Source: Tetrahymena thermophila SB210
Lineage: Eukaryota; Ciliophora; Oligohymenophorea; Hymenostomatida; Tetrahymenidae
Assembly (NCBI RefSeq): GCF_000189635.1
Contig: NW_002476473.1
Span: 1 to 64,000 of the forward strand
Direction: 5' to 3'
DNA length: 64,000 nt
Both the position numbers and the translations under genes were made by a program. A model generated the notes under the pieces. It was not told where the DNA came from. It saw only the letters and a program-made list of their open reading frames with translations, and made no database searches. Numbering within the stretch: the stretch's first letter is position 1; each line of letters starts with the position of its first letter. Shown one piece after another: positions 1 through 39,946 of this stretch.

Positions 1-1740
1 TATTTGTTTTGGATTGTGATATTTTTAATTATAAAAACTAATTAAAAACAATAAAGCTCTTTTTTCTTTTTCTTTTTATCGTGCTTGCTGTTTTGTTTTT
101 TCTTTGTTAATTAAGCTCATCATTTATTTTATTCATTTGCTTTTATTATTAATTAATTTTATTATTTCATATTTTTTCTTCATTTTTTCCTTCTAATTAA
201 CTATATAATGATATATTTTTTCTTCAATATTAAAAAAGGTCTAATTAAATTGGTGCAATGGGTGCATCAGGCTTAGGTTCAGCTTTAGCAAAATGCATTA
301 ATCTCTCAAATTTGACACTTAACCTTCTGTAAAAACACTTTATTTGTTTTGGATTGTGATATTTTTAATTATAAAAACTAATTAAAAACAATAAAGCTCT
401 TTTTTCTTTTTCTTTTTATCGTGCTTGCTGTTTTGTTTTTTCTTTGTTAATTAAGCTCATCATTTATTTTATTCATTTGCTTTTATTATTAATTAATTTT
501 ATTATTTCATATTTTGTCTTCATTTTTTCCTTCTAATTAACTATTTAATGATATATTTTTTCTCCAATATTTAAAAAGTTACAATTAAATTGGTGCAATG
601 GGTGCATCAGGCTTAGGTTCAGCTTTAGAAAAATGCATTAATCTCTCAAATTTGACACTTGACCTTGGGTAAAAACAGTTTATTTGTTTTGGATTGTAAT
701 ATTTTTAATTATAAAAACTAATTAAAAACAATAAAGCTCTTTTTTCTTTTTCTTTTTATCGTACTTGCTTTTTTGTTTTTTCTTTGTTAATTAAGCTCAT
801 CATTTATTTTATTCATTTGCTTTTATTATTAATTAATTTTATTATTTCATATTTTTTCTTCATTTTTTCCTTCTAATTAACTATTTAATGATATATTTTT
901 TCTTCAATATTTAAAAAGTTACAATTAAATTGGTGCAATGGGTGCATCAGGCTTAGGTTCAGCTTTAGAAAAATGCATTAATCTCTCAAATTTGACACTT
1001 GACCTTGGGTAAAAACAGTTTATTTGTTTTGGATTGTGATATTTTTAATTATAAAAACTAATTAAAAACAATAAAGCTCTTTTTTCTTTTTCTTTTTCTT
1101 TTTATCGTGCTTGCTGTTTTGTTTTTTCTTTGTTAAGCTCATCATTTATTTTATTCATTTGCTTTTATTATTAATTAATTTTATTATTTCATATTTTTTC
1201 TTCATTTTTTCCTTCTAATTAACTATATAATGATATATTTTTTCTTCAATATTAAAAAAGGTCTAATTAAATTGGTGCAATGGGTGCATCAGGCTTAGGT
1301 TCAGCTTTAGCAAAATGCATTAATCTCTCAAATTTGACACTTAACCTTCTGTAAAAACACTTTATTTGTTTTGGATTGTGATATTTTTAATTATAAAAAC
1401 TAATTAAAAACAATAAAGCTCTTTTTTCTTCTTTTTCTTTTTATCGTGCTTGCTGTTTTGTTTTTTCTTTGTTAATTAAGCTCATCATTTATTTTATTCA
1501 TTTGCTTTTATTATTAATTAATTTTATTATTTCATATTTTTTCTTCATTTTTTCCTTCTAATTAACTATTTAATGATATATTTTTTCTTCAATATTTAAA
1601 AAGTTACAATTAAATTGGTGATGAAGGTGCATCAGGCTTAGGTTCAGCTTTAAAAAAATGCATTAATCTCTCAAATTTGACACTTGACCTTGGGTAAAAA
1701 CAGTTTATTTGTTTTGAATTGTGATATTTTAAACTATAAA
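1..1740 (+). repeat. Tandem array of ~341-bp exon+intron cassettes
   Basis: Exon starts at 239, 579, 919, 1261 and 1604 give periods of 340, 340, 342 and 343 bp. Intron sequence is as conserved as exon sequence between units; differences are single substitutions and small length changes in a C/T-rich tract (around 420, 1080-1105 and 1430). This points to recent duplication or homogenisation of whole units. Confidence 0.93.
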
Positions 1741-2010
1741 AATGAATATAAAAAAAATTTCTTTGAATTTATTTGATAGCTTTTATTTGATTTATTTTTT
1801 TATCTTTTTTATTGCACTAATATTATTTTATTTATGAATTTAAAGAATAATTTTTAATTTAAAAGTTTATTCTATTTTGATATTTATTTAAAATTTACAC
1901 ATATTTATTTTAAAATTTTTAGCTCAATGAAATTTTCATAAAAATTCAAAGTAAAAGGCAAGTGTCTTAAATCATAAAGATTAGTTGTCTTTAATTTAAA
2001 TTTCTAATGA
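1..2010 (+). CDS. LRR cassette gene A, 3' part (5' end outside window)
   Basis: Five 90-nt exons (239-328, 579-668, 919-1008, 1261-1350, 1604-1693) and a terminal exon (1923-2010, TGA at 2008-2010) are separated by ~250-nt introns starting GTAAAAAC and ending AAAAAG. All introns are phase 2, so each exon encodes one 30-residue ribonuclease-inhibitor-type leucine-rich repeat containing IGAMGASGLGSAL and CINLSNLTL, and the frame stays open through every junction. The terminal exon encodes a basic tail ending with KCLKSQRLVVFNLNFQ. LRRs of this kind are protein-binding scaffolds; the partner is unknown. No signal peptide or membrane segment is visible in this part. The fifth repeat has IGDEGAS instead of IGAMGAS. 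The same gene type recurs on the minus strand at 28-40 kb. LRR identity and splicing are strongly supported; function is not. Confidence 0.85.
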
Positions 2011-18542: not shown

Positions 18543-18925
18543 AAAAAAATACTATTTGAATCTTCTAAATTTAAAATTTTTCATTTGCAATTTCAGCTAA
18601 ATTAAGTTTATTATTTTATCTCTAACTTAAAAATTTTTCTGATATTAATCCATTGAAAAAAAATTATTTTTTATTTTATATTTCATAGTAAAAAATAAAA
18701 AATATATTTAAAACCATTTTTATATAGAAAAATAATAATAAAATAGAATGAATCAAGCAATATCTTCTTTCTATTTCTATATTTCTTTAGCTAGAAACAT
18801 TCCTGATTATTATAAATTTATATCTTGATTAATATTCATGTTTATATTTTAATTAAATGTTACTTAATATTTCATAACATTAAATGATAATTGTCGATAA
18901 TAAAATTTAGATGTAAATTTATTTC
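18543..18925. other. Intergenic, nothing recognised
   Basis: AT-rich 3' flank, no open coding frame. Confidence 0.55.
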
Positions 18926-20987: not shown

Positions 20988-22318
20988 ATAAATTTGCTTT
21001 ACTAAATACTAAATATTATTTATATACACTCCTACTTAAATCATAATTATTTTGAATTTTATTAATTAAAACTTAATTAATTATTTGTAACTAAATCAAT
21101 CCTAATTTATAAAAACAAGTATGCTTTAATATATTCTTATCAGCAAATCCTTTAATTATTCCATATATATAAATTTATTTAAAATTAATTTGCCTTTGAA
21201 ATCAATTAATTATGAAACTTTATTTTCAATAAATACTTTTCAACTCATCTGATATCTTTCTAGATATTTCAGTTTTAAGATAAGCAAAGTACATTAATAT
21301 ATTTTTACATAGAATTAAAATGAATTCAATATAAAAAACATATATAAAGGGAGTAAATCAATTATTGGTAAAAAAACAAAATCGCTATTCTCGAATTATT
21401 ATAAAAAAACTTACATAATTATGGGAATACATTTTATATCTATCACCCCTTATAAACAAATAATAATTTTATATTGATTTTGTTAAACTAGAATTAGATT
21501 AAATACAGATAAAAAATGATGGGCGCCATTCAAAAAAAGGAGATTAATGTTTTTAAAAATTGTATTTTTAATTTACACTTTTTACAAAATTTTAATTAGA
21601 TTCATTCTATAGATACTTATTTTTATTATTAATTCAAGTAAATATTAGCCTCAATACTTTGATTGATTTTACAAAAAAATTAGAAATTGGCTCAGGAAAT
21701 TTCCCTTTTTTGTTTGTTTTGTAACTTTTAGAAAAAGAATAATGTAAATTGATGAATCTGAAATTAATTAAAAAGGCGTTATTATTGAAAAATAAAATTT
21801 GATTTGATTAAATTTACATTGATTGCAAAAATTTAGTTACATAAGTATCAGTAACAGTAATGGAATAATATTTTACTTTATTACCAAATATTATTATTTA
21901 AATTCGAGTTGTATTTTTTAATAAATACATATTTCAATAAATTTAATCCTACCTTCTCAAAAACAATGAAATATATTTCAATTTAAATTATTTCTATTAT
22001 AAAAAATTATAAAATTTATTTGTCCTAATAAAATTTTATTATGCTTTACTTCTACTAGAGGCAAAACAACTTATTTCTATTCAAAGGATGAATAAAGCAT
22101 TTCATATTAAAAAAAAAAACTTTTAACAACTAATGAAAAGTTACAAGTAATCTGTGTTTAATAATCAAAAAATAACTATGCTTTACTTTAATATTATCTA
22201 TGTATCGATTCAAATATTTAAATAATAAAAAAAGGTAAAAAGAAATCCAAATAATTAATTTTTTTAATAATAAACTAAAGATTTATTAATCGATTTAAAA
22301 AAAATTAAAGTAAGCTAA
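20988..22318. other. 1.3-kb spacer between the tetraspanin-like paralogues
   Basis: AT-rich; no coding frame, no similarity noticed to the upstream region of gene 1, so non-coding flanks have diverged more than the genes. Confidence 0.55.
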
Positions 22319-23326
22319 ATGCCATCAGTGCAGTTATTCTTGAAATTTTATCTAATATTTGGAAGCTTTTGTAATGTGTTATTAGGAATTGCTTGCATTA
22401 TTTTATCTTCATAAGCAGCTAAAATCGATGAAAATCTATTTCCAGAACAAGACTAAAAAAATTATAAGAAAGATTTCTGTATTGCTTTGTATGTCTTAGG
22501 AGGTGTCACTATCGGAGTTGGAGCCGTAGGATTCTACAGTTTTATTAGGAAATAAAAATGCTTGTAATCTATTTTTATTATATTTAATATTATTTACTGT
22601 GCTGCATTTTCTGCGATTTTCGGGATAACAATTTATGTATAAAATTATATCAATAAATAAATGACTGATTCTTATTGCTAGTAAGGTGAACTCGGCGATT
22701 ACAATACAGTTTTTCAACAACTATAATCGGTTTGGTGTAATATTGACCTAACAAATTTATCAGGTAGTGTGACTTGTCCTTGTTTAGCAACTAACCTTTC
22801 CTAATGGACAACTGAAGAATTAAAGCTAATAAATAGTTCTAAGTAAGCTTTTAGATAAGATTCAAACTGGATTCCTATTCCTACCACAACAATTCTTGAG
22901 TGCAATTTCTTTATCTAATAAATAGCTGAATAAAAAGCTAAGGAAGTTACTCTTTTAAAAGCAATTGAAAGTAACTTTGAGTGCACAGGAATATGCACAG
23001 GAGATTTAGTTTACTACTTCAACAATATCAACTCTGGTCGACCTGCAAATTCAAATGGATGCTATTCATAAATTAGATAAAAGTTGACTGACTGGGCTTA
23101 ATACATTTACATAATTTCTATCATCATAGCTTGCTTTTCATTTCTTAACATATTATTTGGTAAATTATAAATCATTCTTTCAAATACTCGTGGTTTATTT
23201 TAACAAATTTCCCACTTAAAACTAAAACTTTTTTAATTATTAAAAGCTCTTATAAACTGTTGTATTGGAAGCAAGTAAAATCATATTCTAATATCAAATA
23301 ATAATACAGAAGAAGTGAAAAATTGA
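22319..23326 (+). CDS. Tetraspanin-like membrane protein 2
   Basis: Two exons: 22319-23159 and 23247-23326, intron of 87 nt; 306 residues. It is co-linear with the upstream copy: both first exons are exactly 841 nt and both introns fall in phase 1 after the last membrane segment. Shared blocks include KDFCIALYVLGGVTI, IIYCAAF, VWCNIDL, TCPCLATNLSQW and YYFNNINSGRP. Most synonymous sites differ, so the duplication is not recent. All long-loop cysteines seen in copy 1 are kept, suggesting conserved disulphides. The N-terminal CCEG of copy 1 is replaced by PSVQ, so a possible acylation site is lost. Confidence 0.87.
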
Positions 23327-23975: not shown

Positions 23976-26900
23976 ATGGCAGAAGAAAAGATCAAGATTT
24001 TTAGCTCAAGTTAAGATTTTCTATTTTAGCTGAAAAATTATTCTTAAAACAAAATTGAGTTAGAATTTGAATCTGAATGCACAGATAATCTTGAATTTAT
24101 TGAATAAGCTGGTCATAGCATAGGATAATTGAAACATATTTCTGAAATGTCATTAATGTTTAAAAAGAACACAAATCTAAAATAAGAAGGATGGAGATTT
24201 TTGTTCAAAGGATTGGAGTAGCTTAATTAATTGAAATGTTTAGAAGTTCAAGTAGGTGAGTAGTGCTTTTTAGAAGATTAGGGATTAAATCTATTAATTT
24301 ATGCATATTCTTCATTGGTGAATCTAAAAAAATTAAGTTTAATAGTAGAAAATGCTAATTTTATTTCTTCTTCTTGCGTTAAGAATGTTTTTGATTATCT
24401 TAAACATTTTCCTGAGTTAGTTGAATTGAAGGTGTAAATTTTAGAGTTTTAAATTGATATTTTAGAGAATAAAATGAACATTTGGTCAGGTATTTACTCT
24501 TTATAGTAGGTATAAAGTTTAGATCTATCTCTTAATCTTTCATATAATAATGAAGAAGATATTGATGAATTCTTTCTAGCGCTACTTTCTCTCAAAAACT
24601 TAACACAATTAGTTCTAAATCTAGGTTATAACTAACAAGAATTTGACTTTATTGAAAAAATGACATTACATCTGTCGAAATATACTCAGTTAAAAGAACT
24701 TAGCCTTGGTTTAAATGGAAAATTAAATGAATAGCAAGAAGATTTATTGATCTTTACGTTTTTTCAAAAACTGACTAATTTAGAGAAAATTGATTTGAGC
24801 AAATGCTTTGGAAATTTTCTTCTTTTTAGTTTTCCTGACAGATATTATGAATCTCTCTCATATTTACCTCACTTGAGAGATTTAAAAATTGAATTAATCC
24901 CTTAATCAAATTAAAAAAAAGGATCTGCAATGAAAAGAGTTAATTGCCTATGCAATAAATAAAATCTAAGAAGTTTATAATTATTAAGTTCATATACCGA
25001 TCTAAATGATGAATAAAGTCTGATTTTGTATAAAGCACTATAGAATAATAAAAAAATGGAATATTTAAATTTATAATTAAGAATAATACCAAATGAGCAT
25101 TTAAGTGTCCAACTTATTGAATCTTTATGCTGTTTATAGTAACTAAAATAGCTGGAAATACAATTCGCTATCAACAGCAGAAGTATAAATAGCTTAAATT
25201 AGATAATTTCAGCTATTGGAAACATTAAAAGTTTATAAAATTTAAAGATGCATCTAAATTTTCTAGATATTCCCAATCTAAATTAATAATAACTTGTTTT
25301 ATCTAGTTTAAAAAATATCAATTTAAGTAGCTTTGAATTTCAGTTAGATGCTGTGATTTTAGGAAAAGAGTTTCAAGAGTTAGGAAAAATGCTTTAAAAT
25401 TAAAAGCAATTGCAAAAGTTGAAAATTATAATTAGATTTAAACAATACTAAAACTTTTTTTTTTTGGATAATCAATAATAAATTTAATAATAAATATAAA
25501 ATCATTATTAAATAGAATCAATTGAAGATTTTATTGAAGGAATTAAAAGTCTTTAAAACCTGAAAGAGCTTCAGTATGGTATCAACCACTCGACTAATAC
25601 TCAAACATTAGATCCAATTTTTGATTCTCTATCGTATTTAAATAATTTAGAAGTGTTTAAACTCCTAGAAGATAAAGATTATGAAGATTCATAAATAGTT
25701 TTATTAACAAAATCTCTTTGTAATTTAAAAAAACTAAAATAACTAAAATTATAAGAAATTAAATCAGTTGAATAAGAAGTTTTATTATGTTAAATTGAAA
25801 ATATTTCTAATTTGAATACTCTTTAATAGTTAGATTTCTTTAATAAAATTTAAAATATAGATAACATGAAAATTGGAGTAACTAAACTCTTTTTAAATTT
25901 ATCTTAGCTTTAGAGTCTTTAAATGGCTATTTAAATCTCTCAAAACAATGAGCTTTTGTTTGAAGATATCATTACAGGAATTGGAAAATTAAAATAGTTG
26001 TAAAAGCTTAAAATAAAATTTGGTTAATATTAATTCACTGACACTGGTTCATATCATTTTAGTTAGGCATGCTAAGGTTTGGAAAATCTAATAGAGCTAA
26101 TGATAGATAATATTATCATAGATGATGACATGACATAAAATGGTATAAAATTTTTACAAGAGGGATTTTCAAAGCTTTAAAAACTAAAAATCTTTGATAG
26201 TGATTTTTATATCCCAACTGTAGAGTTTTCTTAAATATTAAAAGAATTTTTCACAAAGAAATCTTTGAACGAATTGAACATAAGAGTTGAGACTAAAGAA
26301 AAGCTAAACACAAAAGATGACATGGAAATTAACTAATAAATAGATTAATTAATTGAAACAAAATAAAACATTAATCACAATTTAACAAAAATATTTTTAG
26401 ATTTTGAATATTGCTTAAAACAGTAAGCATTTTAAATTTAGAAATTTTATGAAAACTTGATTAACTTATAAAATCTTAACAATTTATCAATAGTTCATAA
26501 TTGGGATATAAGTTATGACTAAAATTAATAAGTTGATTTTACTTAAATTTTTAAGAATTTAGCTTGTGGATTTTAGCAGTTTAAAAAATTGTAGAAGTTA
26601 AAAATCTAACTTAAAAACTGTTATTTTGACTTAGAACAAATCCCAATTGACAATATGAAATGCTTGAATAATTTGAAGAACTTAGATTTGGTATTAAATT
26701 TTTGTTCTTTATATTCAGAACATAAGCTGTTTGATTCGTTGAAATTTTTAAATCAACTTTAATACCTAAATATTTGTATTGATAAACATAGTAAGTTTGG
26801 TAAAAACGCAGCAATTTCACTTGGAAAAAGTTTAATGCATTTAAAAATGGTTTAAAAATTGATCCTCAATTTAATAGAAGGTTGTTAAATTGAATAAGAA

Positions 26901-27953
26901 GGAGCTGCAGAAATTGGCACAGGACTAGGCTACTTGAAGAATCTTACTTTCCTTAACATTTATTTTATGGAATCTTGTAAAATAAATGAGATTGGAGCAA
27001 TAAAATTAGGAGAAGGGATAAGTAAACTTTTAGCATTAAGGGAATTATACCTTACAATTTGCTCAAATAATAATATTACAAAAAAGGCTGGTGCTTTCTT
27101 AGCATCTTCTTTAAGAAATAAAAAATATTTGAAGAAACTTAATTTTGTTTTATTAAAAGAAAACAATGAGCAAGGCTAAGAGTTTTTAGATGAAATATCT
27201 AAATTTTTTTATGAATCAAAACATCTTAAATAAAGTTATTTAATGGTTAGCTTTGATGAATACCCAAAATATTGCCCAGATTAGTTAAAAAATTTTATCT
27301 CTGAACTCTCTGGATAAGATATTAGTTTGTAAATAAGTAATAGATTACCACAAATTCAAACAAAAATGACCATTTAAAGTGATGAAGGATAAATAAAATT
27401 TATATTTAGCTATGATGAAAAATTAACTGAATATTATCCTAAAATTGAATTAGAATTAATGCAAAAAATTGATAAAAGCAAAAAAATTATCTTAAATTTT
27501 GAAATAAGTGATAACAATATTTCTAGCCATAAGATTACTAGCGTAAAAGAGTTAATTTAACAACTTCAAGTGTAAAATTTAGCAATTTATTTATAATTTT
27601 ATCAGTTTTCATAAATTTACTTAGATGAAATTATTTTTCAGGCATTAAAAAATAAAGAGCTACTCCATTTTAATTTAGCTTTAAGATAGGAAGGAGTCTA
27701 AGAAGTTCAAAATGAAGTTCTTATTTAAATTGGGAAACGTTTTAGCGAATTAAATTTATTAACTCTTGAATTAATATTTAGCGATTCAACATATGAAAAT
27801 TTATTTACAAATAAATATGCGCTTATTTTTAAAGAATTATCTCATTCTAAAACTCTTCGAGCCATATCAATAAGAAGTCCATATTCTAATATGAATAAGC
27901 TTAAGCGCAATATGAAATATATTCAAAGGCTTGTAACATTTTCTTATATTTGA
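23976..27953 (+). CDS. Large ribonuclease-inhibitor-type LRR protein, 1325 residues
   Basis: One uninterrupted frame, ATG 23976-23978 to TGA 27951-27953, no intron. Dozens of repeats with the spacing L-x-x-L-x-x-L-x-L fill the whole protein, for example LKNLTQLVLNLGYN, LTNLEKIDLSKC, LHLKMVQKLILNL. The best-conserved part (26870-27150) has the canonical IEQEGAAEIGTGLGYLKNL and IGAIKLGEGISKLLALREL pattern of ribonuclease-inhibitor LRRs. No signal peptide, kinase or other added domain was seen. It is intronless and its repeats are strongly diverged, unlike the cassette LRR genes in this window, so it represents an old member of the same broad superfamily. Probable role: intracellular protein-binding scaffold; partner unknown. 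It converges on LRR gene C downstream. Confidence 0.92.
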
Positions 27954-28389
27954 CAATTTTTTTATGATGACCAAGATGATTATAATAATAATAATAACAA
28001 CAACAATATATGTACTTTTTATTTCTTTGAGTGTTTTGTAATAAGGTAGTATTGCTTGCTATTCTGAATTTAAAAAAATATCTATTTTTACAGTATAATT
28101 TTTTTCATTTTATTGTATCATAAATTAATTTATCATTATCTTTATATTAAATTTTAACAATTTTTTTACTGTGAGATGTTGTAAGATGTTGTGAGATAGG
28201 TGTAGATATAGCCTCCCCCCTCCTTATAATTTTAAGATTAATTTGGATTAAACAAATAAATAACAATTATTCAAATTCTAAAACTGTTATAACATCTTAC
28301 TTAAAATAAAATAAAAATAAAAATATTAATAATTAAATTTAAATTTTAAGTTGTATTCTGAGTGCATTTATATGTGCGAGTATTTCTAT
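27954..28389. other. Convergent intergenic region
   Basis: Lies between the 3' ends of the large LRR gene (+) and truncated gene C (-). Contains GATGTTGTAAGATGTTGTGA (repeated GATGTTGT) and a C-rich patch CCTCCCCCCTCC near 28212, unusual for this DNA. Confidence 0.5.
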
Positions 28390-31300
28390 TCTATTCTATC
28401 ACCAATTTTATTATTACTTTTAAATATTGAAGAAAGAATGTATAATTAATTAGTTATTTAGAACAAAAAAATATGAAATAATAAGAAAATTATTATTAAA
28501 TAATAAAAAGAAATTGAAAATATTAAAATGAGTTAAATTAAGAAACATAGAAGAAGAAAAAAAAGTAAAATAAAAAAGAAAAAGAAAAATAAATCAAATA
28601 AAAAGCTAATAAATAAATTAAAAGAGTTTTATTATATTAAATTTATTTTTATTAGTAAAAATATCTCAATCAAAAGTGAATAAATTGTTTTTACTTAAGA
28701 CTAAGAGACAAACTTAAGAGATTAATGCAATTTGCTAAAGAAGAACCTAAGTCTGAAGCACCTGTTGCACCAATTTAATTGTGGCTTTTTATATATTAAG
28801 CAATTAATTAGTTATGTTGAAGGAAAAAATGAACAAAAAATATGAAATGAATTAATAAATAATACATGCAAATGTTAAATTTAAAAAAATCGTTTGCTAA
28901 GAAAGACAGAAGAAGAAAAAAACTCAAATATAATAAAAATAAAACAGAAAAGTAAATCAAATAAAAAATAAATAAACAAATTAAATAAGTTAATTATATT
29001 GTTTTAAATTCATTTTTATAAATAAAAATATCATTATTCAAAACAAATAAAACTTTTTTACTTTAATAAAAGTGTCAAATTTAAGAGATTAGTGCAATTT
29101 GCTAAAGCAGAACCTAATCCTGATGCACCTGTTTCACCAATTTAATTTTAACTTTTTAAATATTGAAGAAAAAATATTTAATTAATTAGTTATTTAGAAG
29201 GTAAAATGAAGAAATAATATGAATTAATAAATAATAAAAGTAAATGTTGAAAATAAAAAAATTAATTAGTTAAACTAAAAAAGATAGAAGAAGAAAAAAA
29301 ACACAAATATGATAAAAAAGAAAAAGAAAAGTAAATCAAATAAAAAAATTAAAAGAGTTATATTATTTTAAATTCATTTTTATTAGTAAAAATATCATAA
29401 TCTAAACAAATAAAACATTTTTACCTAAGATCAAATCCTAAATTTTAGATATTAGTGCAATTTGCTAAAGCAGAGCCTAAGCCTGATGGACCTTAATCAC
29501 CAATTTCATTGGATCTTTTTAAATATTGAATAAAAAATATATAATTAAATATAATTAACTAGCTATTTAGAAGGAAAAAGTAAAGAAAAAATAAGATAAG
29601 AATTAATAAATAAATAAATAAAAAATATTGAAAAAAAAATCAATTAAATTAAGAAAGATAGAAGAAAAAAAACACTAATACAATAAAAAAAAGAAAGATA
29701 TCTCAAATAAAAAGCAAATAAAAAAATTAAAAGAGTTTTTTTTTTAAAATTCATTTTTATTAGTAAAAATATCACAATCTAAATTAAATAAACTGTTTTT
29801 ACCTAAGACTAAGTTTAATATTTGAGAGTTTAGTGCAGTTTGCTAAACCAGAACATAACCCTGATAAACCTTAATCACCAATTTTATTGGATCTTTTTAA
29901 ATATAGAAGAAAAAATTTTTAATTAATTTGTTATTTAGAAGGAAAAAATGAAAAAAAATACTAAATAATAAGAAAAGTTAAATTAAGAAAAAACACAAAT
30001 ACAATAAAAAAGAAAAATAAATAAATAGATAATAAACAAATTAAAAGAGTTATATTTTATTAAATTCAATTTTATAAATAAAAATATCACAATCCAAGAC
30101 AAAAAAACTTTTTTTTTTTTTACCTAATATCAAGTATCAAATTTGAGAGATTAGTGCAATTTGCTAAAGCAGAACCTAAGTCTGATGCACCCATTGCACC
30201 AATTTAATTTTTACTTTTTAATTATTGAAGGAAGAATATAAAATTAATTAATTATTTAGAACAAAAAAATATGAAATAATAAAAAATGAGTAAATAAATA
30301 ATAAAAGCAAATGTTGAAAATATTAAAATGAATTAAATTAACAAAGATAAAAAAGAAAAAAAAACAAATACAATAAAAAAAGAAAAGTCAATCAAATTAA
30401 AAACTAAAAAGCAGAATTAAAAGTGTTATATTATTTTAAATTTAAATTTATATTTATAAAGAAAAATATAATAATCCAAAACACATAAACTATTTTTACT
30501 TAAGATCAAGTATCAAATTTGAGAGATTAGTACAATTTGCTAAAGCAGAATCTAAGACTGATACACTTTAATCATCAATTTTATTGGATCTTTTTAAATA
30601 TTGAAGAAAAAATTTATAATTAATTTGTTATTTAGAAGGAAAAAATGAAGAAAAAATATGAAATAATAACAAAAGATTTAATAAAAAAATAATAAAAGCA
30701 AATATTAAATATAAAAAAATGAGCTAAATTAAGAAGGATTGAATAAGAAAAATGGCAAGTACAATAAATTAGAAAAAGAAAAAGAAATAAAAACTAATAT
30801 ACAAATTAAAAGATTTTTATTTTTTTTAATTCAATTTCATAAGTATCACAATCCAAAACAAATAAACTGCTTTTACTAAAGACTAAGTGTCAATTTTGAG
30901 AGATTAATGCAATTTGCTAAAGCATAATCTAGGCCAGATGCACCGATTGCGTCAATTTAATTGTTACTTTTTATATTGAAGATAAAAAAGATTAAATCTT
31001 CAGTAATATACACATGGATGTAAATGCTATAATTATTCACTGTTTTTTTTATTGGTTCTAAAAATGTTTTCAATACACTCACTAATCATTAAATGCGGCA
31101 TTATGCACTATGTTTCCTAAATGAAAAATACTATTCATTTTTTTTTGTTGGAAACCAAGCTGAACCAAATATTTTTTATTACATATTACGAAAGAGTATA
31201 ATTGAAAACATGAAAGCAAAAAAATTTTGAGCAATAAAATTTGAACTCTTTATGGAAAGTTTTTCAAAATATTGATATGTTTTATCTAAAAAATTGAATT

Positions 31301-32150
31301 TTTGAAAAACCCATAATTTTTGATTAAGAAATTGATAATATTTAATGTATTTTTTATAAAAAAATGAATGGAAATTTTATATTTTTAAAGACTTTCTACA
31401 AAAATTTTAATAATTTCAATGTAAATTTTTAAGCTTAATGGCATGTGTATGTTTTTAACTTTTACATCCATGTGTTAATTTATTTTTGGATATTTATTTA
31501 GAAAGAAAAAATTAAGAAAAAATATTAAATAATAAGAAATGAATTAATTAATAAATAAATATTGACAAATAAAAATCTTCTTAACAAATTAATAAAATTT
31601 TATTGTTTTAAATTCATTTTTATAAGTAAAAATAATACAATCCAAAACAAATAAATAAATTGCTTTTACTAAAGATCAAGTGTCAAATTTGAGAGATTAG
31701 TACAATTTGCTAAAGCAGAACCTAAACCTGATGCACGGATTGCACCAATTTAATTGTTACTTTTTAAAAATTTAAATAATAATTTATAATTAATCAATTA
31801 TTTAGTAGGAAAAAATGAAGAAATAAAAAGAAAAGAATAAATAAATAATAAAACAAATATTGAATATTAAAAAAATGAGTTAAATTGAAAAATATAGGAA
31901 AAACACACAAATAAATATAATAAAAAAGAAAAAGAAAATTAAATCAAATAAAAAGCTAATAAACATGTTTAAAGAGTTTTTTGTATTAAATTAATTTTTA
32001 TAAGAAAAATATCATAATCCAAAACAAATAAATTGTTTTTACCTAAGATTAAGCGTCAAATTTGAGAGATTAGTGCAATTTGCTAAAGCAAGACCAAAGC
32101 CTGATGCATCTTAATCATCAATTTAACTCCAACTTTTTAAATATCGAAGA
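28390..32150 (-). repeat. Cassette array of gene C (9 full units and one partial)
   Basis: Exon ends at 28784, 29151, 29514, 29892, 30213, 30589, 30966, 31759 and 32132 give a period of 320-380 bp, apart from 793 bp where an element is inserted. The intron core CACAATCCAAAACAAATAAA (as read on +) recurs in most units with more changes than in gene B. A decayed extra unit without splice sites lies near 32390-32440. Confidence 0.9.
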
Positions 32151-32766
32151 AAAAATAAAAAAATAAATCGTAATTATGGTAAAAATGAAGAAAAAATATG
32201 AAATAATAAGAAATAAATTAATAAATAATAAAATATAAATTAAGTTAAATTAAGAAGATAGAAGTAGAAAAAACACAAGTAAAATAAAGAAGAAAAAGAA
32301 AAGTAAATAAAAAAAAAACTAAAAAACAAATTAAAAGAGTTATTTTACCTTAAATTAATTTTAATAACTAAAAATATCCAAAATAAATAAACTTTTTTTA
32401 TCAAGTAAAAGTTTCGAAAAAAAGAATAAAAATATCAGTAATAAAAAATGGATAATTAATTTAATAATTTAAAGTGACAAAAAGTTAAAATAGATAAAAA
32501 AATATTCGTACAAATAAAATGAGTGAATGAATATAGGTGATAATTTCTATTAAAAAAATCAAACTGAAATTTAAATAGAAAATATTAATAATAATAATAA
32601 TATTTATAAATTAAATATACTTCAGATCAATATCAAGAGCCTAATGAGATTAAAGTGAAGAGTTTATAAACTTTTTATATTAGCAAAAATAAATTTAAAG
32701 TATATAGATAAAAATAATAATTATTACATCTTCTAATTTGTAGTAATAGTTAATCTATTATTTCAT
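28390..32766 (-). CDS. LRR cassette gene C, 3' end broken
   Basis: Minus-strand gene. Exon 1 is 32728-32766 (39 nt, ATG at 32764-32766, MKQQINYYYKLED, then GTAAT). Exon 2 is 32621-32670 (50 nt, ending ALDIDLK). Nine 90-nt LRR exons follow: 32043-32132, 31670-31759, 30877-30966, 30500-30589, 30124-30213, 29803-29892, 29425-29514, 29062-29151, 28695-28784. Intron phases agree throughout (phase 0 after exon 1, phase 2 elsewhere). A tenth LRR exon starts at 28416 but loses similarity after about 25 nt, and no terminal exon like those of genes A and B follows; the frame simply runs on. It is therefore truncated or has a new tail. Its repeats are more diverged than those of gene B (for example IGDQGLSGL). 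The IR element at 31010-31475 sits in one intron. Confidence 0.75.
31010..31475. mobile_element. 466-bp MITE-like element with perfect 15-bp terminal inverted repeats
   Basis: Left end ACACATGGATGTAAA (31010-31024) and right end TTTACATCCATGTGT (31461-31475) are exact inverted complements. The interior shares nothing with the cassette around it, and the cassette sequence resumes on both sides, so it is an insertion into an intron of gene C. TA lies next to both ends, but a base-exact target duplication is not clean (one-base offset). It has no coding capacity, so it would be non-autonomous. It could also be a retained internal eliminated sequence. Confidence 0.72.
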
Positions 32767-33334
32767 TTATTTTTTTTCTCAAAAATATTAAATCGCAATT
32801 TATGAAAATTTAATTAATTATAAGTGGATAAAAGGAACAAATAAATTATATGAATTTATAAATTTGCTTTTAGTTAGTAAGAGAAATCACAAAAAAATAA
32901 GTGTAACATTCAATATTAAATCTTAATATTTTTATTTAAAATGTGTATTTTAAAATATAGTAGAAACTAGAGAACAGATATAAATGATGGATAATAAAGA
33001 TGCGAACTCATTAGAATAAAATAAAATAAAATTTTGATGTATTTAAGCCTATTTTTCTAATTAGATTCATTTTCATATTTTTTTAAATCTTAAATTTTTG
33101 AATTGTCTAAGCTGCTTTTAATTAGCAAGAATTGAAATCTTGCTAGTTTTATACAATTTTGGATTAGCAATATTATATAAATTTATTTAATATTATATAG
33201 ATAAATAATTATAGGTGTAACCTATCACTATTTATCTCTCTAATACAAAAAAAAATCTGCAATTAACAATAATAAAATAATTTATATTATTCAAACATTT
33301 AATATCTATTCATCCTTTTTTCGCCACTTGTTTA
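32767..33334. other. Spacer between genes B and C
   Basis: Contains the upstream region of gene C and, at 33290-33334, the 3' flank of gene B, which matches the flank of gene A in inverted orientation. The upstream part resembles 39947-40160, the corresponding region of gene B. Confidence 0.6.
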
Positions 33335-36300
33335 TCATCCGAATATTTTTTAAAAGACAACTAATCTTTTTGATTTAAGACACTTGTTTATTACTTTGAA
33401 TTTTTATTATTTCTTTAAGCTAAAAATTTTATAATAAATTTGTGTAAATTTTTAATAAATATCAAAATAGAATATACTTTTAAATTAAAAATATTTCTTT
33501 AAATTAATAAATAAAATAGTATTAGTGGAATAAAAAAGATAAAAAAATAAATTAATAAAGCCTTCAAATAAATTCAAAGATATTTTTGTTTTATATTCAT
33601 TTTATAGTTTAAAATATCACAATCTAAAACAAATAAACTGTTTTTACCTAAGTTAAAGTGTTAAATTTAAGAGATTAATACATTTTGCTAAAGCAGAACC
33701 TAAGCCTGATGCACCTTTATCACCAATTTAATTTATACTTTTTAAATATTGAAGAAAAAATATATCATAAATAGTTAACTAGAAGGAAAAAATGAAGAAA
33801 AAATATGAAATAATAAATAAGATTAATTAATAATAAAATCAAAACTTGAAAACAAAATTATGTATTAAATTAACAAAGAAAGAACAAAAAAAAGCAAACA
33901 ATCACAATAAAAAGAAAAAGAAAAAAGAGCTTTATTGTTTTTAATTAGTTTTTATAATTAAAAATATTACAATCCAAAACAAATAAACTGTTTTTACCTA
34001 AGATCAAGTGTCAAATTTGAAAGATTAATGCAATTTGCTAAAGCAGAACCTAAGTTTGATGCACCTTCATCACCAATTTAATTAAAACTTTTTAAATATT
34101 GAAGAAAAAATATATCAATAAATAGTTAATTAGAAGGAAAAAATGAAGAAAAATATGAAATAATAAATAAGATTAATTAATAAATAATAAAAGCAAAAGT
34201 TGAAAATAAAATGATGAGTTAAATTAACAAAGAAAGAACAAAAAAAAGCAAGCAAGCACAATAAAAAGAAAAAGAAAAAAGAGCTTTATTCTTTTTAATT
34301 AGTTTTTATAATTAAAAATATCGCAATTTAAAATAAATAAACTGTTTTTACCAAAGTTAAAGTGTTAAATTTGAGAGATTAATGCAATTTGCTAAAGCAG
34401 AACCTAAGTTTGATGCATTTTCATCACCAATTTTATTACTACTTTTTAAATATTGAAGAAAAAAATTTTCATTAAATAGTTATTTAGAAGGAAAAAATGA
34501 AGAAAAAATATGAAATTATAAATAAGATTAATTAATAATAAAAGCAAAAGTTGAAAATAAAATGATGAGTTAAATTAACAAAAAAAAGCAAGCAAGCACA
34601 ATAAAAAGAAAAAGAAATAAGAGCTTCATTGTTTTTAATTAGTTTTTATAGTTAAAAATATCACAATCCAAAACAAATAAAATGTTTTTACAAAAGCAGA
34701 AGTGTCAAATTTGAAAGATTAATGCAATTTGCTAAAGCAGAACCTAAGCCTGATGCACCCATTACACCAATTTAATTGTTCCTTTTTAAATATTGAAGAA
34801 AAAATATATCAATAAATAGTTAATTAGAAGGAAAAAATGAAGAAATTAATATGAAAAAATAAATAAGATTAATTAATAATAAAAGCAAAAGTTGAAAATA
34901 AAATGATGAATTAAATTAACAAAGAAAGAACAAAAAAAAGCAAGCAAATACAATAAAAAGAAAAAGAAAAAAGAGCTTTATTGTTTTTATTAATTAGTTT
35001 TTATAATTAAAAATAATACAATTCAAAACAAATAAACTATTTTTACGAAAGCTTAAGTGTCAAATTTGAGAGATTAATGCAATTTGCTAAAGCAGAACTT
35101 AAGCCTGATGAACCTTCATCACCAATTTAATTTCCACTTTTTAAATATTGAAGAAATAATATATCATTAAATAGTTAATTAGAAGGAAAAAATGAAGAAA
35201 AATATGATATAATAAATAAGATTAATTAATAATAAAACCAAAAATTGAAAATAAAATAATGAATTAAATTAACAAAGAAAGAACAAAAGCCAAGCAAGCA
35301 AGTACAATAACAAGAAAAAGAAAGAAGAGCTTTATTGTTTTTAATTAGTTTTTATAATTAAAAATATCACAATCCAAAACAAATAAACTGTTTTTACCTA
35401 AGACCAAGTGTTAAATTTAAGAGATTAATGCTTTTAGCTAAAGCAGAACCTAAGCCTGATGTACCTTCATCACCAATTTAATTAAAACTTTTTAAATATT
35501 AAAGAAAAAATATTTAATTAAATAGTTAATTAGAAGGAAAAAATGAAGAAAAATATGATAAAAGCTAAAAATGAAAATAAAATGATGAGTTAAATTAACC
35601 AAAAAAAGCAAGCAAGCACAATAAAAAGAAAAAGAAAAAAGAGCTTTATTGTTTTTAATTAGTTTTTATAATTAAAAAGATCACAATCTAAAACAAATAA
35701 ACTGTTTTTACAAAAGTATAAGTCTCAAATTTGAAAGATTAATGCAATTTGCTAAAGCAGAACCTAAGCCTGATGCACCCATTGCACCAATTTAATTTTC
35801 ACTTTTTAAATATTAAAGAAAAAATATTTCAGTAAATAGTTAATTAGAAGGAAAAAATGTAGAAAAATATGAAATAATAAGATTAATTAATAAATAATAA
35901 AAGCAAAAGTTGAAAATAAAATGATGAGTTAAATTTACAAAGAAAGAACAAAAAAAACAAGCAAGTACAATAAAAAGAAAAACTAAAACGAGCTTTATTG
36001 TTTTTAATTAGTTTTTATAATTAAAAATTTCACAATCCAAAACAAATAAACTGTTTTTACCGAAGGTTAAGTTTCAAATTTGAGAGATTAATGCAATTTG
36101 CTAAAGCAGAACCTAAGCCTGATGTACCCATAGCACCAATTTAATTTCGACTTTTTAAATATTGAAGAAAAAATATATCATTAAATAGTTAATAAGAAGG
36201 AAAAAATGAAGAAAAATATGATATATAAATAAGATTAATTAATAATAAAACCAAAAGTTGAAAATAAAGTGATGAGTTAAATTAACAAAAAAAGAACAAA

Positions 36301-39300
36301 AAAAAGCAAGCAAGCACAATAAAAAGAAAAAGAAAAAAGAGCTTTATTGTTTTTATTAATTAGTTTTTATAATTAAAAAATCACAATTCAAAACAAATAA
36401 ACTGTTTTTACGAAAGCTTAAGTGTCAAATTTGAAAGATTAATGCAATTTGCTAAGGCAGCACATAAGCCTGATGCACCTTTATCACCAATTTAATTTTC
36501 ACTTTTTAAATATTGAAGAAAAAATATATCATTAAATAGTTAATAAGAAGGAAAAAATGAAGAAAAATATAAAATAATATTAAAGATTAATTAATAATAA
36601 AACCAAAAGTTGAAAATAAAATAAATGATGAGTTTAATGAACAAAAAAAAGCAAGCAAGCACAATAAAAAGAAAAAAGAGATAAATTGTTTTTAATTAGT
36701 TTTTATAATTAAAAATATCACAATTCAAAACAAATAAACTGTTTTTACGTAAGTTCAAGTGTCAAATTTAAGAGATTGATGCAATTTGCTAAAGCAGAAC
36801 CTAAGCCTGATGCACCCATTGCACCAATTTAATTGTTCCTTTTTAAATATTGAAGAAAAAATATATCATTAAATAGCTAATTAGAAGGAAAGAATGAAGA
36901 AAAATATGAAATAATAAGATTAATTAATAAATAATAAAAGCAAAAGTTGAAAAAAAATTATGAGTTAAATTAACAAAGAAAGAACAAAAAAAAGCAAGCA
37001 AGCACAATAAAAAAGAAAACAAAAAAGAGTTTGATTGTTTTTAATAAGTTTTTATAATTAAAAATATCACAATCCAAAACAAATAAACTATTTTTACCTA
37101 AGATCAAGTGTTAAATTTAAGAGATTAATGCATTTTGCTAAAGCAGGACCTAAACCTGATGCACCCATTGCACCAATTTAATTTTCACTTTTTAAATATT
37201 AAAGAAAAAATATTTCATTAAATAGTTAATAAGAAGGAAAAAATGAAGAAAAATATGAAATAATATATAAGATTAATTAATAATAAAACCAAAAGTTGAA
37301 AATAAAATGATGAGTTAAATGAACAAAAAAAAACAAGCAAGCACAATAAAAAGAAAAAGAAAAAAGAGATATATTGTTTTTAATTAGTTTTTATAATTAA
37401 AAATATCACAATTCAAAACAAATAAACTGTTTTTACGAAAGCTGAAGTGTCAAATTTGAGAGATTAATGCTATTTGCTAAATCAGAACATAAGCCTGATG
37501 CACCTTCATCGCCAATTTAATTTTAACTTTTTAAATATTCAAGAAAAAATATATCATAAAACAGATAATTAGAAGGAAAAAATGAAGAAAAATATTAAAT
37601 AATAAATAAAATTAATTAATAATAAAAGCAAAAGTTGAAAATAAAATTATGAGTTAAATTAACAAAGAAAGAATAAAAAAAAGCAATCAAGCACAAATAA
37701 AAGAAAAAGAAAAAAGAGCTTTATTGTTTTTAATTAGTTTTTATAATTAAAAATATCACAATCCAAAACAAATAAACTGTTTTTACGAAAGCTGAAGTGT
37801 CAAATTTGAAAGATTAATGCAATTTGCTAAAGCAGAACCTAAGCCTGATGCACCCATTGCACCAATTTAATTGTTCCTTTTTAAATATTGAAGAAAAAAT
37901 ATATCATTAAATAGCTAATTAGAAGGAAAAAATGAAGAAAAATATGAAATAATAAGATTAATTAATAAATAATAAAAGCAAAAGTTGAAAAAAAATTATG
38001 AGTTAAATTAACAAAGAAAGAACAAAAAAAAGCAAAAAATCACAATAAAAAGAAAAAGAAAAGAGAGCTTTGTTGTTTTTAATTAGTTTTTATAATTAAA
38101 AATATCACAATCCAAAACAAATAAACTGTTTTTACCTAAGATCAAGTGTTAAATTAAGAGATTAATGCNNNNNNNNNNNNNNNNNNNNNNNNNNNNNNNN
38201 NNNNNNNNNNNNNNNNNNNNNNNNNNNNNNNNNNNNNNNNNNNNNNNNNNNNNNNNNNNNNNNNNNNNAACTTTTTAATATTTAAGAAAAAATATATCAA
38301 TAAATAGTTAATTAGAAGGAAAAAATGAAGAAAAATATGAAATAGTAAATAAGATTAATTAATAATAAAAGCAAAAGTTGAAAATAAAATAATTAGTTAA
38401 ATTAACAAAGAAAGAACAAAAAAAAAGCACAATAAAAAAGAAAACAAAAAAGAGTTTGATTGTTTTTAATAAGTTTTTATAATTAAAAATATCACAATCC
38501 AAAACAAATAAACTGTTTTTACGAAAGCTGAAGTGTAAAATTTGAAAGATTAATGCAATTTGCTAAAGCAGAACCTAAGCCTGATGCATCTTCATCACCA
38601 ATTTCATTGCTCCTTTTTAAATATTGAAGAAAAAATATATCAATAAATAGTTAATTAGAAGGAAAAAATGAAGAAAAATATGAAATAATATATAAGATTA
38701 ATTAATAATAAAAGCAAAAAAAAATTATGAGTTAAATTAACAAAGTAAGAACTAAAAAAAACTAGCAAGTACAATAAAAAGAAAAAGAAAAAAGAGATTT
38801 ATTGTTTTTAATTAGTTTTTATAATTAAAAATATCACAATCCAAAACAAATAAACATTTTTACTAAAGCTGAAGTATCAAATTTGAGAGATTAATGCAAT
38901 TTGCTAAGGCAGAACTTAAGCCTGATGCACTCATTAAACCAATTTAATTGTAACTTTTAAATATTTAAGAAAAAATATATCATTAAATAGAGTAAGTTGC
39001 CATACAAATTTACAAAAAGCGAGTTTTATATACCAGTTTCTACATTTTATAAAATTAAAATTTAAAATATTTTTTTATCCCAGGGAATTCATTTGTAAAA
39101 TTTTTCAAAATTTATTTTTTTCAAAAAAATGATATGTTATAAGAATATACAATATGTATATATTATTTCAAATTTATATTTTATGAATTTAAAGCTTTCT
39201 AAAAACTCAAAAATAAAGCTATTTTAAGCTAATTTAGCTTTATTTATTATGTTATTAAGCTATGTTAAATTTCGCCTTTTATAAATTAAATAGGCATTTT

Positions 39301-39649
39301 ACTCTAGTTAATTAGAAGGAAAAAATGTAGAAAAAATACGAAATAATAAGATTAATAAATAATTGATAAAATTAACAAAGAATGAAAAAATAAGAAATCA
39401 AAATAAAAAGAAAAAGATAAATAAATAAATTAAAAGAGTTTTAATGTTTTAAATAAACTTTTTTAATTAAAAATATTACAATCCATAAAAAATAAACTGA
39501 TTGCTTTTATTAAGTGTAAGTTTGCTTTAATAGCAAAAAATGAATAAAAAATATCAAATAACAAAAAATTAATAATAAATATATAATTAAAAATTGAAAT
39601 CAATATGAAGTTAAAATAGCTAAAAAATTTTAGTTTGAATAAATATCAA

Positions 39650-39689
<40 letters not shown>

Positions 39690-39946
39690 GATGATAATCA
39701 TTAATTTCTATAATAAAAATTATTTATTTAAATAAATTGAAAGTTAAATATGTAAAAAATATTAATAATAATAAAAATAATCATTTTTAATTAAATATAC
39801 TTCAGATTAATATGGAGAACCTAATGAGATTAAATTGAAGAGCTTAAAAACTTTTTTTATTAATTTATATAAATTTAAAGGATATTAATAAAAAAATTAA
39901 TAATTACTTCTCCTAATCTATTATATTTTTTAATCTATTATATCAT
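33335..39946 (-). CDS. LRR cassette gene B, 16 tandem LRR exons
   Basis: Exon 1 39908-39946 (39 nt, MIQQIKKYNRLGE), exon 2 39801-39850 (50 nt, ending VLHINLK), sixteen 90-nt LRR exons, terminal exon 33335-33419 (ends KCLKSKRLVVFQKIFG, TGA at 33335-33337). LRR exons begin (lower coordinate) at 38864, 38523, 38136 (cut by the N gap), 37787, 37437, 37098, 36749, 36412, 36061, 35712, 35398, 35047, 34692, 34352, 33998, 33648. With the gap filled to 90 nt the total is 1614 nt, 537 residues, and the frame closes, which supports the model. Each exon encodes a consensus ribonuclease-inhibitor-type LRR (NNQIGAMGASGLGSALANCI, then NLSNLTLDLR). Repeats are nearly identical. No signal peptide or membrane segment. 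Exon 38136 lacks one T (AAATTAAG instead of AAATTTAAG) at the gap edge, probably a sequencing error. Confidence 0.83.
33600..38955 (-). repeat. Cassette array of gene B, period ~350 bp, 16 units
   Basis: Lower exon edges step by 314-387 bp, mostly 337-355. Exons and introns are both highly conserved. Recurring landmarks on + are CACAATCCAAAACAAATAAA, GAGATTAATGCAATTTGCTA and TAGAAGGAAAAAATGAAG. Sub-patterns (CACCCATTGCACC against CACCTTCATCACC) recur irregularly among units, which suggests shuffling or gene conversion. Confidence 0.95.
38169..38268. other. Assembly gap of 100 N
   Basis: Exactly 100 N, so a placeholder length. It cuts the LRR exon starting at 38136: 33 nt are visible before and 2 nt after, so about 55 nt are missing if no whole unit is collapsed. 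Unit spacing would then be ~342 bp, as expected. Confidence 0.95.
38990..39304. mobile_element. 315-bp inverted-repeat element flanked by TA on both sides
   Basis: Inserted in the intron between exon 2 and the first LRR exon of gene B. Ends are GAGTAAGTTGCC (38990-39001) and GGCATTTTACTC (39293-39304), inverted repeats matching at 10 of 12. TA at 38988-38989 and 39305-39306 flank it; removing the element and one TA restores AAATAGTTAATTAG, the sequence of neighbouring cassettes. That makes it a precise insertion with TA target duplication, as made by Tc1/mariner-type elements and TA-bounded ciliate eliminated sequences. No ORF, so non-autonomous. Confidence 0.82.
39649..39688. repeat. AATA microsatellite
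   Basis: About ten uninterrupted copies of AATA in an intron of gene B. Confidence 0.95.

Follow-up and report, generated by a model that had tools for sequence, protein, structure and literature searches.

Leucine-rich repeat genes of Tetrahymena thermophila built from 90-nt exons diverge most at residues of the concave face

Three leucine-rich repeat (LRR) genes, here called A, B and C, are built as arrays of 90-nt exons on a 64,000-nt stretch of the Tetrahymena thermophila SB210 genome (contig NW_002476473.1, positions 1 to 64,000; hereafter the window), and the differences among their units are concentrated at three residues of the concave LRR face. Judged from their sequence, they very probably belong to the young ("group III") 90-bp-exon LRR genes of Tetrahymena and evolve in the manner set out below. 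The arrays as such are already known: Xiong et al. (2019, PMC6564038) described their architecture in ten Tetrahymena species, along with their expansion through unequal exchange, and suggested a role in recognition. The addition made here to that family is that exons diverge more than introns, with an excess at residue 28, the split junction residue (j) and residue 1.

Throughout the window, each of the 29 complete array exons measures 90 nt, lies between AG and GTAAAA, and reads as 1 nt plus 29 codons plus 2 nt without TGA (translation table 6); the introns on both sides of every one are predicted from the sequence to be in phase 2. These observations bear out the initial annotation, which had proposed one LRR per 90-nt exon bounded by phase-2 introns. 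With all array introns in phase 2 and all exons of 90 nt, the frame survives the gain, loss or exchange of whole units, as the annotation had also proposed and as the published explanation holds (PMC6564038). Open AG-N90-GTAAAA patterns number 31 in the window (25 on the minus and 6 on the plus strand), of which 29 are the array exons (24 minus, 5 plus). The unit counts given earlier were likewise confirmed: 15 complete units plus one at an assembly gap in B, nine in C and five in A, B and C being on the minus strand and A on the plus strand (Table 1). B has at least 16 units, because the 3' half of a further exon is readable at the gap; this half-exon lacks one nt, which may be an assembly error. 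The interval first assigned to the arrays, 28390..39946, does contain B and C, and its upper end is the ATG of B, but A lies outside it, at 239-1693, truncated by the contig end (the window begins at contig base 1).

Table 1. Positions of the parts of genes A, B and C, and of associated elements, in the window
Feature	Positions	Strand	Description
A1	239..328	+	90-nt LRR exon
A2	579..668	+	90-nt LRR exon
A3	919..1008	+	90-nt LRR exon
A4	1261..1350	+	90-nt LRR exon
A5	1604..1693	+	90-nt LRR exon
A terminal exon (predicted)	1923..2010	+	SMKFSQKFKVKGKCLKSQRLVVFNLNFQ, stop TGA
B exon 1 (predicted)	39908..39946	-	39 nt, MIQQIKKYNRLGE, ends in phase 0
B exon 2 (predicted)	39801..39850	-	50 nt, FLSSSIQSHQVLHINL + 2 nt, ends in phase 2 with first LRR strand
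Insert in B intron exon 2-B1	38990..39305	.	terminal inverted repeats, TA each side
B1	38864..38953	-	90-nt LRR exon
B2	38523..38612	-	90-nt LRR exon
B unit at gap	38125..38268	-	interrupted by 100-N gap (38169-38268); only 3' half of exon and donor readable
B3	37787..37876	-	90-nt LRR exon
B4	37437..37526	-	90-nt LRR exon
B5	37098..37187	-	90-nt LRR exon
B6	36749..36838	-	90-nt LRR exon
B7	36412..36501	-	90-nt LRR exon
B8	36061..36150	-	90-nt LRR exon
B9	35712..35801	-	90-nt LRR exon
B10	35398..35487	-	90-nt LRR exon
B11	35047..35136	-	90-nt LRR exon
B12	34692..34781	-	90-nt LRR exon
B13	34352..34441	-	90-nt LRR exon
B14	33998..34087	-	90-nt LRR exon
B15	33648..33737	-	90-nt LRR exon
B terminal exon (predicted)	33335..33419	-	entered in phase 2, ...KFKVINKCLKSKRLVVFQKIFG, stop TGA
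C exon 1 (predicted)	32728..32766	-	39 nt, MKQQINYYYKLED
C exon 2 (predicted)	32621..32670	-	50 nt, FINSSLQSHQALDIDL + 2 nt
C1	32043..32132	-	90-nt LRR exon
C2	31670..31759	-	90-nt LRR exon
Insert in C2-C3 intron	31010..31475	.	perfect 15-bp terminal inverted repeats
C3	30877..30966	-	90-nt LRR exon
C4	30500..30589	-	90-nt LRR exon
C5	30124..30213	-	90-nt LRR exon
C6	29803..29892	-	90-nt LRR exon
C7	29425..29514	-	90-nt LRR exon
C8	29062..29151	-	90-nt LRR exon
C9	28695..28784	-	90-nt LRR exon
C tenth exon	28400..28416	-	first 17 nt only, normal acceptor before
Conserved element	28347..28399	-	~54 nt, fused to start of tenth C exon

Units of this kind are abundant in the genome, where one 20-mer taken from them has 1270 exact copies and its reversed control none; all of these data come from one assembly of one genome. 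Among 231 sampled units with splice borders, 10 were not 90 nt long, and all 221 sampled 90-nt exons, the 29 of the window counted in, were open, the sampling script favouring splice pairs closest to 90 nt. TGA was found in 1 of 69 exons of a further sample. Window introns free of gap or insert span 224-288 nt, and the intron median is 258 nt (n=190). Leucine occupies codons 12, 16, 22, 25, 27 and 29 in 22-24 of the 24 B and C exons at each position. The group III genes (PMC6564038) have the same 90-nt exons in arrays of at least three, the same phase-2 introns on both sides, leucines at the same six positions (exon positions 36, 48, 66, 75, 81 and 87 in the legend to S15 Fig), an intron length peak of ~257 nt, unit repeats recognizable at the nucleotide level, variable unit number and scrambled units; in architecture, we found no difference between the genes described there and those of the window. 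The published genes are also associated with a REP tail, whose description fits an element in C (below), and further marks of the group are a pericentromeric or subtelomeric germline location and masking by a CRS consensus.

The ends of the genes are also recurrent. One 5'-end pattern matches 29 such starts in 28 of the 43 sources searched, B and C among them, and the terminal-exon motif of B is present in 9 of 20 stretches examined and after A. The usual terminal exon is absent from C, which may be a damaged gene; the fusion of a truncated exon to the ~54-nt element is found in C and at 8 other loci among those examined, and the element is plausibly a retained REP retrotransposon tail, matched to the published 54-bp tail by description only. 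For the insert in B, the genome gave 222 candidate places, of which 40 were scored, the insert itself and 39 others; that in C has 11 partial matches. In the predicted B and C proteins, two conserved exons would supply a short N-terminal cap, followed by a solenoid to which each 90-nt exon adds one 30-residue repeat, with a short conserved exon probably forming the C-terminal end in A and B. A Pfam scan of spliced C, and of spliced B minus its gap unit and terminal exon, gave LRR families above cut-off and neither NB-ARC nor NACHT; its sole non-LRR match was DUF6180, over 43 residues within the repeats of B (30.1 bits, cut-off 26.9), and Pfam assigns no partner domain of known function.

In 19 of the 20 arrays compared, divergence is greater in exons than in introns. 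Mean pairwise identities for exon and intron, respectively, are 0.927 and 0.983 in A, 0.842 and 0.922 in B, and 0.775 and 0.790 in C, computed over aligned columns only, with indels uncounted and introns longer than 300 nt excluded. The annotation had described introns as nearly as conserved as exons; introns are conserved, but the statement was too modest. The excess divergence peaks at residues 28, j and 1, which occupy the x positions of the concave-face motif LxLxxN. These are the three most variable residues in the three window arrays plus 17 others, and all 13 further groups gave the same result. Across the 20 arrays, mismatch per base is 0.508 at codons 1, 28 and j (bootstrap 0.460-0.553), 0.080 at four-fold sites elsewhere (0.055-0.108) and 0.089 in introns (0.064-0.119), a ratio to four-fold sites of 6.4 (4.7-9.2) with an excess in every array. 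In six unit pairs from five arrays whose introns differ at 1-3 bases, a mean of 2.3 of the four codons 1, 26, 28 and j differ. The third base of the leucine codon 29, although flanked by the variable codons 28 and j, stands at 0.033 (0.000-0.090), arguing against a local hot spot of mutation. Off-strand residues 7, 3 and 6 were also variable in the first sample, and residue 11 reached 0.81 in the second sample versus 0.26 in the first. In an alignment to PDB 5irl, L27, L29 and N2 fall on the LxLxxN columns; the database labels this entry "Uncharacterized protein", and we take it to be NOD2.

These rates suggest from sequence that the binding face has diversified much faster than introns or surrounding silent sites. 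The silent sites within the variable codons complicate the dN/dS comparison at surface positions that had been recommended: the 6.4-fold excess agrees with selection there, but pN is 0.420 and pS 0.335 at codons 1, 26 and 28 (on 1.9 silent sites per unit), 0.333 and 0.418 at codons 6 and 7 (0.9 silent sites per unit), and pooled whole-exon dN/dS is ~1 (A 1.14, B 0.95, C 1.29). Raised silent change inside variable codons would fit repeated whole-codon replacement and codon-targeted mutability alike. Differences at the binding face are, moreover, expected among the units of one solenoid; the pattern is one of fast change between otherwise alike units, not of an arms race as such. The site pattern points to diversifying selection, as opposed to the purifying selection indicated by gene-wide Ka/Ks < 1 in PMC6564038, whose main text does not use the terms "positive selection", "diversifying", "concave" or "hypervariable"; our literature search found no earlier report of diversifying selection at these residues.

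Unit order is scrambled. In B and C, adjacent units are no more similar than shuffled units, which counts against simple recent local duplication, and in A the same residues are encoded by exons 1 and 4 and likewise by exons 2 and 3, in keeping with the earlier remark that unit variants recur irregularly. The nearest exon neighbour lies in a different array for ~66% of units. This, together with the scrambled order in B and C, argues for exchange within and between genes, as the annotation had supposed, although no unequal crossover was observed as such. Unequal exchange and conversion, the main growth mechanism in PMC6564038, probably take place in the ~250-nt introns, which resemble one another both within a gene and from gene to gene.

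Three other explanations were weighed against diversifying selection. The arrays could be mostly decaying satellite-like DNA, their units spread by REP retrotransposon or unequal exchange, their exons incidentally open and their concave residues unconstrained. Units are indeed repetitive and dispersed, some depart from 90 nt, the last exon of C breaks off after its start and runs into the REP-tail-like element, inserts with terminal inverted repeats lie within introns of B and C, and axenic cultures show no or very weak expression of most species-specific genes (PMC6564038). We nonetheless consider such decay improbable, because the exons are open almost without exception, the leucines are nearly fixed, and lack of constraint should take sites no higher than the neutral rate, which codons 1, 28 and j exceed several-fold. 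No more credence is due to targeted mutation or template switching (like that of diversity-generating retroelements, or cDNA-templated exon conversion) as the source of concave diversity in place of selection on ordinary mutations. It would accommodate the raised silent sites in variable codons, the 20 intron bases beside each splice site, which fall below the intron average, and the poor agreement of exon and intron nearest neighbours (28 of 126 units, ~16 by chance). In one array (L040), four 250-nt introns are identical and successive exons differ at 16-20 of 90 nt, a pattern that may be an assembly effect; introns may in places have been homogenised by the repetitive assembly. Against targeted mutation, the silent base of leucine 29, flanked by variable codons, changes little, no reverse transcriptase was found among 10 long frames scanned, and the adenines of the AAT codons 2, 21 and 24 stand at 0.041, against adenine-directed mutagenesis; on the same figure, the adenine-directed variability of diversity-generating retroelements is not seen here.

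Alternatively, frequent gene conversion may have homogenised the introns while balancing selection kept old exon diversity, with no recent rapid substitution, a proposal that we regard as unlikely but worth serious thought. Nearest neighbours lie in the same array far more often for introns (0.69) than for exons (0.34), and near-identical introns sometimes stand beside very different exons. Conversion that spared exons would not, however, leave four-fold exon sites as similar as introns, and selection on the concave face is needed there too, the difference from our preferred explanation being mainly one of tempo. That preferred explanation is diversifying selection on a recognition surface whose repertoire would be constantly reshuffled by exchange: amino-acid change between units is greatest at 28, j and 1, with leucines, most silent sites and introns remaining alike. 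The hypervariable junction residue takes two bases from one exon and one from the next, and since its codon is split in this way, intron exchange could also remake j.

Among known systems, plant NBS-LRR proteins such as SH3-CNL in coffee show positive selection at xxLxLxx (PMC3113787); there too, the LRR strand diversifies at its exposed x residues, an effect missed when larger regions are averaged, and duplication and gene conversion occur among paralogues. B and C differ in lacking an NB-ARC match, in having one exon per repeat with phase-2 introns, and in having no known ligand or immune role, and the common x-residue excess is a shared way of working, not membership. Ribonuclease-inhibitor-like LRR proteins (5irl, the ribonuclease inhibitor 1dfj, DRC5) share the repeat type LxLxxNxIGDEGAxxL; the window genes are distinguished by 30-residue repeats one per exon, no assigned partner domain and very large copy number. 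They are among 13 sequences matched in a PDB search, the best being the LRR protein 9y6s chain 8O. In lamprey variable lymphocyte receptors, LRR-module diversity on the concave face constitutes a recognition repertoire, assembled somatically from germline cassettes. The window arrays resemble these receptors in concave-face module diversity and differ in having ordinary predicted introns.

A putative role as a recognition scaffold, as in the initial description, gains strength from hypervariability that is centred on the concave LRR face. Over a thousand LRR genes were counted in most species, and the describers of the family proposed a function in sensing bacteria (PMC6564038). The odds seem to us about even that the 90-nt-exon genes make up, in the germline, a repertoire of hypervariable recognition proteins like the LRRs of plant NLRs and lamprey VLRs, in which a phase-2 intron lies inside the concave patch, each intron exchange can remake j, and diversifying selection drives residues 28, j and 1 at several times the rate of silent sites, hidden from gene-wide Ka/Ks. 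The architecture itself confirms the published family. With the residues to examine (28, the junction and 1) named, the question of what these genes are for is now testable, and if their binding faces are under diversifying selection, a single-celled grazer with these genes would provide a strong candidate for a large protist recognition system.

The window, the first 64,000 bases of a contig of 124,937 bases in a genome of 101 Mb and 445 contigs, is AT-rich. With TAA and TAG read as Q it contains 49 stop-to-stop frames of at least 250 aa; with the bacterial code and common start codons, no frame of at least 150 aa was found in it. A profile search located 25 units on the minus strand within 28,685-38,951, one of them cut by a gap. 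A further 5 lie on the plus strand within 242-1,704; all remaining matches in the window are weak (E >3). These units form three LRR genes: B, with 15 complete exons and one cut by a 100-N gap, and C, with 9, both on the minus strand, and A, with 5, which is truncated by the contig end. Profile search and exon borders thus agree with the unit counts of the initial annotation (B 16, C 9, A at least 5), and the range it gave encloses B and C; A lies outside. Each of the 29 complete exons measures exactly 90 nt between an AG and a GTAAAA, is in phase 2 at both ends and is open in table 6. Across both strands the window contains just 31 open AG-N90-GTAAAA patterns, and the array exons are 29 of these. 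The architecture, counts, open frames and family features, as well as the site pattern described below, are those of one assembly; the exons of A, B and C are presumably spliced and their proteins made. Several contigs (C1, C2, C5, C7, C17 and C85 of G000) start or stop inside or beside arrays of 90-nt exons. The assembly seems to break on such arrays, and unit counts near contig ends are therefore minimal.

The initial annotation was a good independent rediscovery of a published family. The available sections of Xiong et al. 2019 (PMC6564038) cover Tetrahymena LRR genes built on exons of exactly 90 bp; more than 96% of these exons lie between two phase-2 introns, and T. thermophila genes carry 1 to 51 each. 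They also report exon scrambling, unequal crossing over, spread linked to the retrotransposon REP and, in the youngest gene group, an intron peak of ~257 bp; the six conserved leucine positions given there match those of the window exons. We compared the window with 20 further stretches, chosen from the first 100 places listed for a 20-base exon pattern and holding most, not all, of those places. In the combined set, 231 of 234 profile hits had splice borders; 221 of the 231 were 90 nt, as placed by a border script that favours the splice pair closest to 90 nt, and all 221 were open, 211 with the donor GTAAAA. With introns restricted to 200-300 nt (163 of 190 kept) and arrays to at least 4 units, 151 units remained. 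A second sample comprised 21 loci selected by 5' flank, on contigs differing from those of the first; 69 of its 76 units were 90 nt, and 1 carried a TGA. From this sample L032, which overlaps L038, was dropped, as were locus-strand groups with fewer than 2 unit-plus-intron pairs (18 to 13).

Variation within the arrays is concentrated at residues 28, j (the junction residue, its codon split by the phase-2 intron) and 1. These had the highest within-array mismatch of the 30 residues in the window's three arrays (1, 0.81; 28, 0.79; j, 0.77) and also led in the 17 other arrays (1, 0.84; j, 0.77; 28, 0.76), followed by 7, 3, 6 and 26. The x side chains of the LxLxxN strand line the concave LRR face, and in the register set by alignment to PDB 5irl, the x positions of L27-x-L29-x-x-N2 are occupied by residues 28, j and 1. 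Base mismatch was 0.508 in codons 28, j and 1 (bootstrap over arrays 0.460-0.553), 0.080 at four-fold sites elsewhere, where only codon pairs agreeing at the first two bases were used (0.055-0.108), and 0.089 in introns (0.064-0.119); the three codons were above both in 20/20 arrays. In 6 unit pairs from 5 arrays the introns have only 1-3 mismatched bases, and a mean of 2.3 of the 4 codons 1, 26, 28 and j differ. The 13 groups of the second sample ranked j, 28 and 1 highest, then 11 and 7, with a mismatch of 0.529 in codons j, 28 and 1, exceeding the 0.071 of four-fold sites and the 0.120 of introns (13/13 groups for both). Residue 11, at 0.81 in the second sample and 0.26 in the first, is not accounted for by the concave face.

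Diversifying selection on the concave face is the simplest account of this pattern. Relaxed constraint is insufficient, since it would bring change up to the silent rate only and these codons change at about six times that rate. A local mutation hot spot at the exon ends is disfavoured: Leu codon 29, amid the variable codons, has a mismatch of only 0.033 at its silent base, and the intron bases adjoining the splice sites are not raised. Adenine-directed (DGR-like) mutagenesis is disfavoured as well, adenines being conserved. One observation goes the other way from selection, namely that the few silent sites inside the variable codons are raised too, both in codons 1, 26 and 28 (pN 0.420, pS 0.335) and in codons 6 and 7 (pN 0.333, pS 0.418). 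Repeated whole-codon replacement can raise such sites, and codon-targeted mutability could do so. Such selection on the concave face would be hidden in whole-exon averages, the pooled dN/dS being 1.14 in A, 0.95 in B and 1.29 in C. The coffee SH3-CNL genes are alike in that averages over larger regions mask a site-level signal, with Ka/Ks >1 only for xxLxLxx residues in the available text of PMC3113787.

Exons diverge more than introns in 19/20 arrays (at least 4 units, introns 200-300 nt), the sole exception being locus L048 (exon 0.241 vs intron 0.268). In the window, mean within-gene identities for exon and intron are 0.927 and 0.983 in A, 0.842 and 0.922 in B, and 0.775 and 0.790 in C. Base composition as the cause of this exon/intron contrast is partly borne out, as G/C consensus sites vary equally (exon 0.189, intron 0.186; 19 arrays, B and C lumped), but A/T consensus sites of the same arrays differ (0.123 vs 0.068), so composition alone is no full explanation. 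The nearest neighbour of an intron belongs to its own array in 69% of cases and that of an exon in 34% (chance 5%), the exon figure being the same for concave and for other sites. The exon and the intron of a unit share their nearest neighbour in 28/126 units, vs ~16 by chance. Simple local tandem duplication is not supported in B and C, where adjacent units are no more alike than shuffled ones; a neighbour effect at 0.05 was seen for introns in 3/14 arrays and for exons in 1/14. Near-identical exons (at most 2 differences) form 5 pairs within arrays and none between arrays in the sample, so the cross-gene clusters described in the available text of PMC6564038 are not reproduced here. Unequal exchange between units probably contributed to these arrays. 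At locus L040 (G000:C6:1-3500, 216-1485), four introns in succession, each of 250 nt, have exactly the same sequence, and the exons they separate differ at 16-20 of 90 nt from one unit to the next, a striking pattern for which homogenisation by the assembly is a candidate cause.

At the 5' end, a pattern of two predicted exons of 39 and 50 nt, parted by a short intron and ending before GTATAT, occurs 29 times, in 28/43 sources searched; two of the occurrences, L032 and L038, are one gene. The pair typically reads MIQQIKKYYKLEE + FLSSSLLSHQVLHIDL, and the second exon closes in phase 2 on an LRR strand. Behind A and B lies a predicted terminal exon (...KCLKSKRLVVF...) with a TGA stop, which is also present in 9/20 fetched stretches; it was sought for C and not found. 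Downstream of C9, behind a normal acceptor, a tenth exon starts and after 17 nt runs into a ~54-nt element. Such a fusion is present at 8 other loci examined (the window and L059 being the same place), with a few additional bases at the joint in two of them (L045, L037), and L061 has a degenerate form. The repeat containing this element has 143 candidate places, of which 40 were scored; 39 of these are matches elsewhere. According to the available text of PMC6564038, a 54-bp REP tail persists in the macronucleus and is associated with these LRR genes, and from that description we infer that the element at the end of C is the REP tail. The 3' end of C (28170-28420, 251 nt) has a 98% identity copy at C41:65021-65270 that extends past the truncated exon. 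The upstream flanks of C and B are dispersed too (40/1,194 and 40/862 candidates scored, respectively), with 68-83% identity over matches >500 nt among those scored.

Predicted gene starts, inserts and neighbouring features in the window
Feature	Position	Strand	Remarks
Predicted 5' start of B	ATG at 39,946	minus	39-nt/50-nt exon pattern, once before B
Predicted 5' start of C	ATG at 32,766	minus	39-nt/50-nt exon pattern, once before C
TIR element, 316 nt	38990-39305		GAGTAA.../...TTACTC, TA both sides; first array intron of B
Insert, 466 nt	31010-31475		perfect 15-bp TIRs; C intron 2
Open frame, 1388 aa	23787-27953	+	adjoins C; end (~26860-27240) resembles irregular LRRs, lacking 90-nt exons
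Zinc-ribbon-like frame, 65 aa	40810-41007	opposite to B	CPVC and CFTC pairs; upstream of B
Tetraspanin-domain frame	21803-23326	+
Protein kinase-domain frame	54111-56030	-
Tandem duplication, 2 x 151 nt	3516-3818		98% matches
Tandem duplication, 3.5 x 247 nt	14802-15647		82%
Tandem duplication, 2 x 228 nt	18915-19374		96%

For the TIR element of B, 40 of 222 candidates were scored, giving 39 other places; the insert of C has 11 partial matches elsewhere. The frame adjoining C had no Pfam match and its last 650 aa no PDB match; the zinc-ribbon-like frame matched neither Pfam nor PDB. A PDB search with the kinase frame matched many kinases, and three flanking frames searched against PDB gave no match. 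Elsewhere in the genome, an NADH dehydrogenase exon shows 66-residue identity to PDB 7tgh chain V1, which we take to be from a T. thermophila complex. Taken with the LRR gene family, this assigns the genome to the genus Tetrahymena.

No earlier report of diversifying selection on the concave face in Tetrahymena was found in a literature search thin on subscription journals, which is not proof of novelty, and a term search within the available text of PMC6564038 found no report of the concave-face site pattern. That text suggests bacteria-recognition-like processes for these LRR genes. Selection on the concave face is the probable cause of the site pattern, and the A, B and C proteins may serve in recognition.
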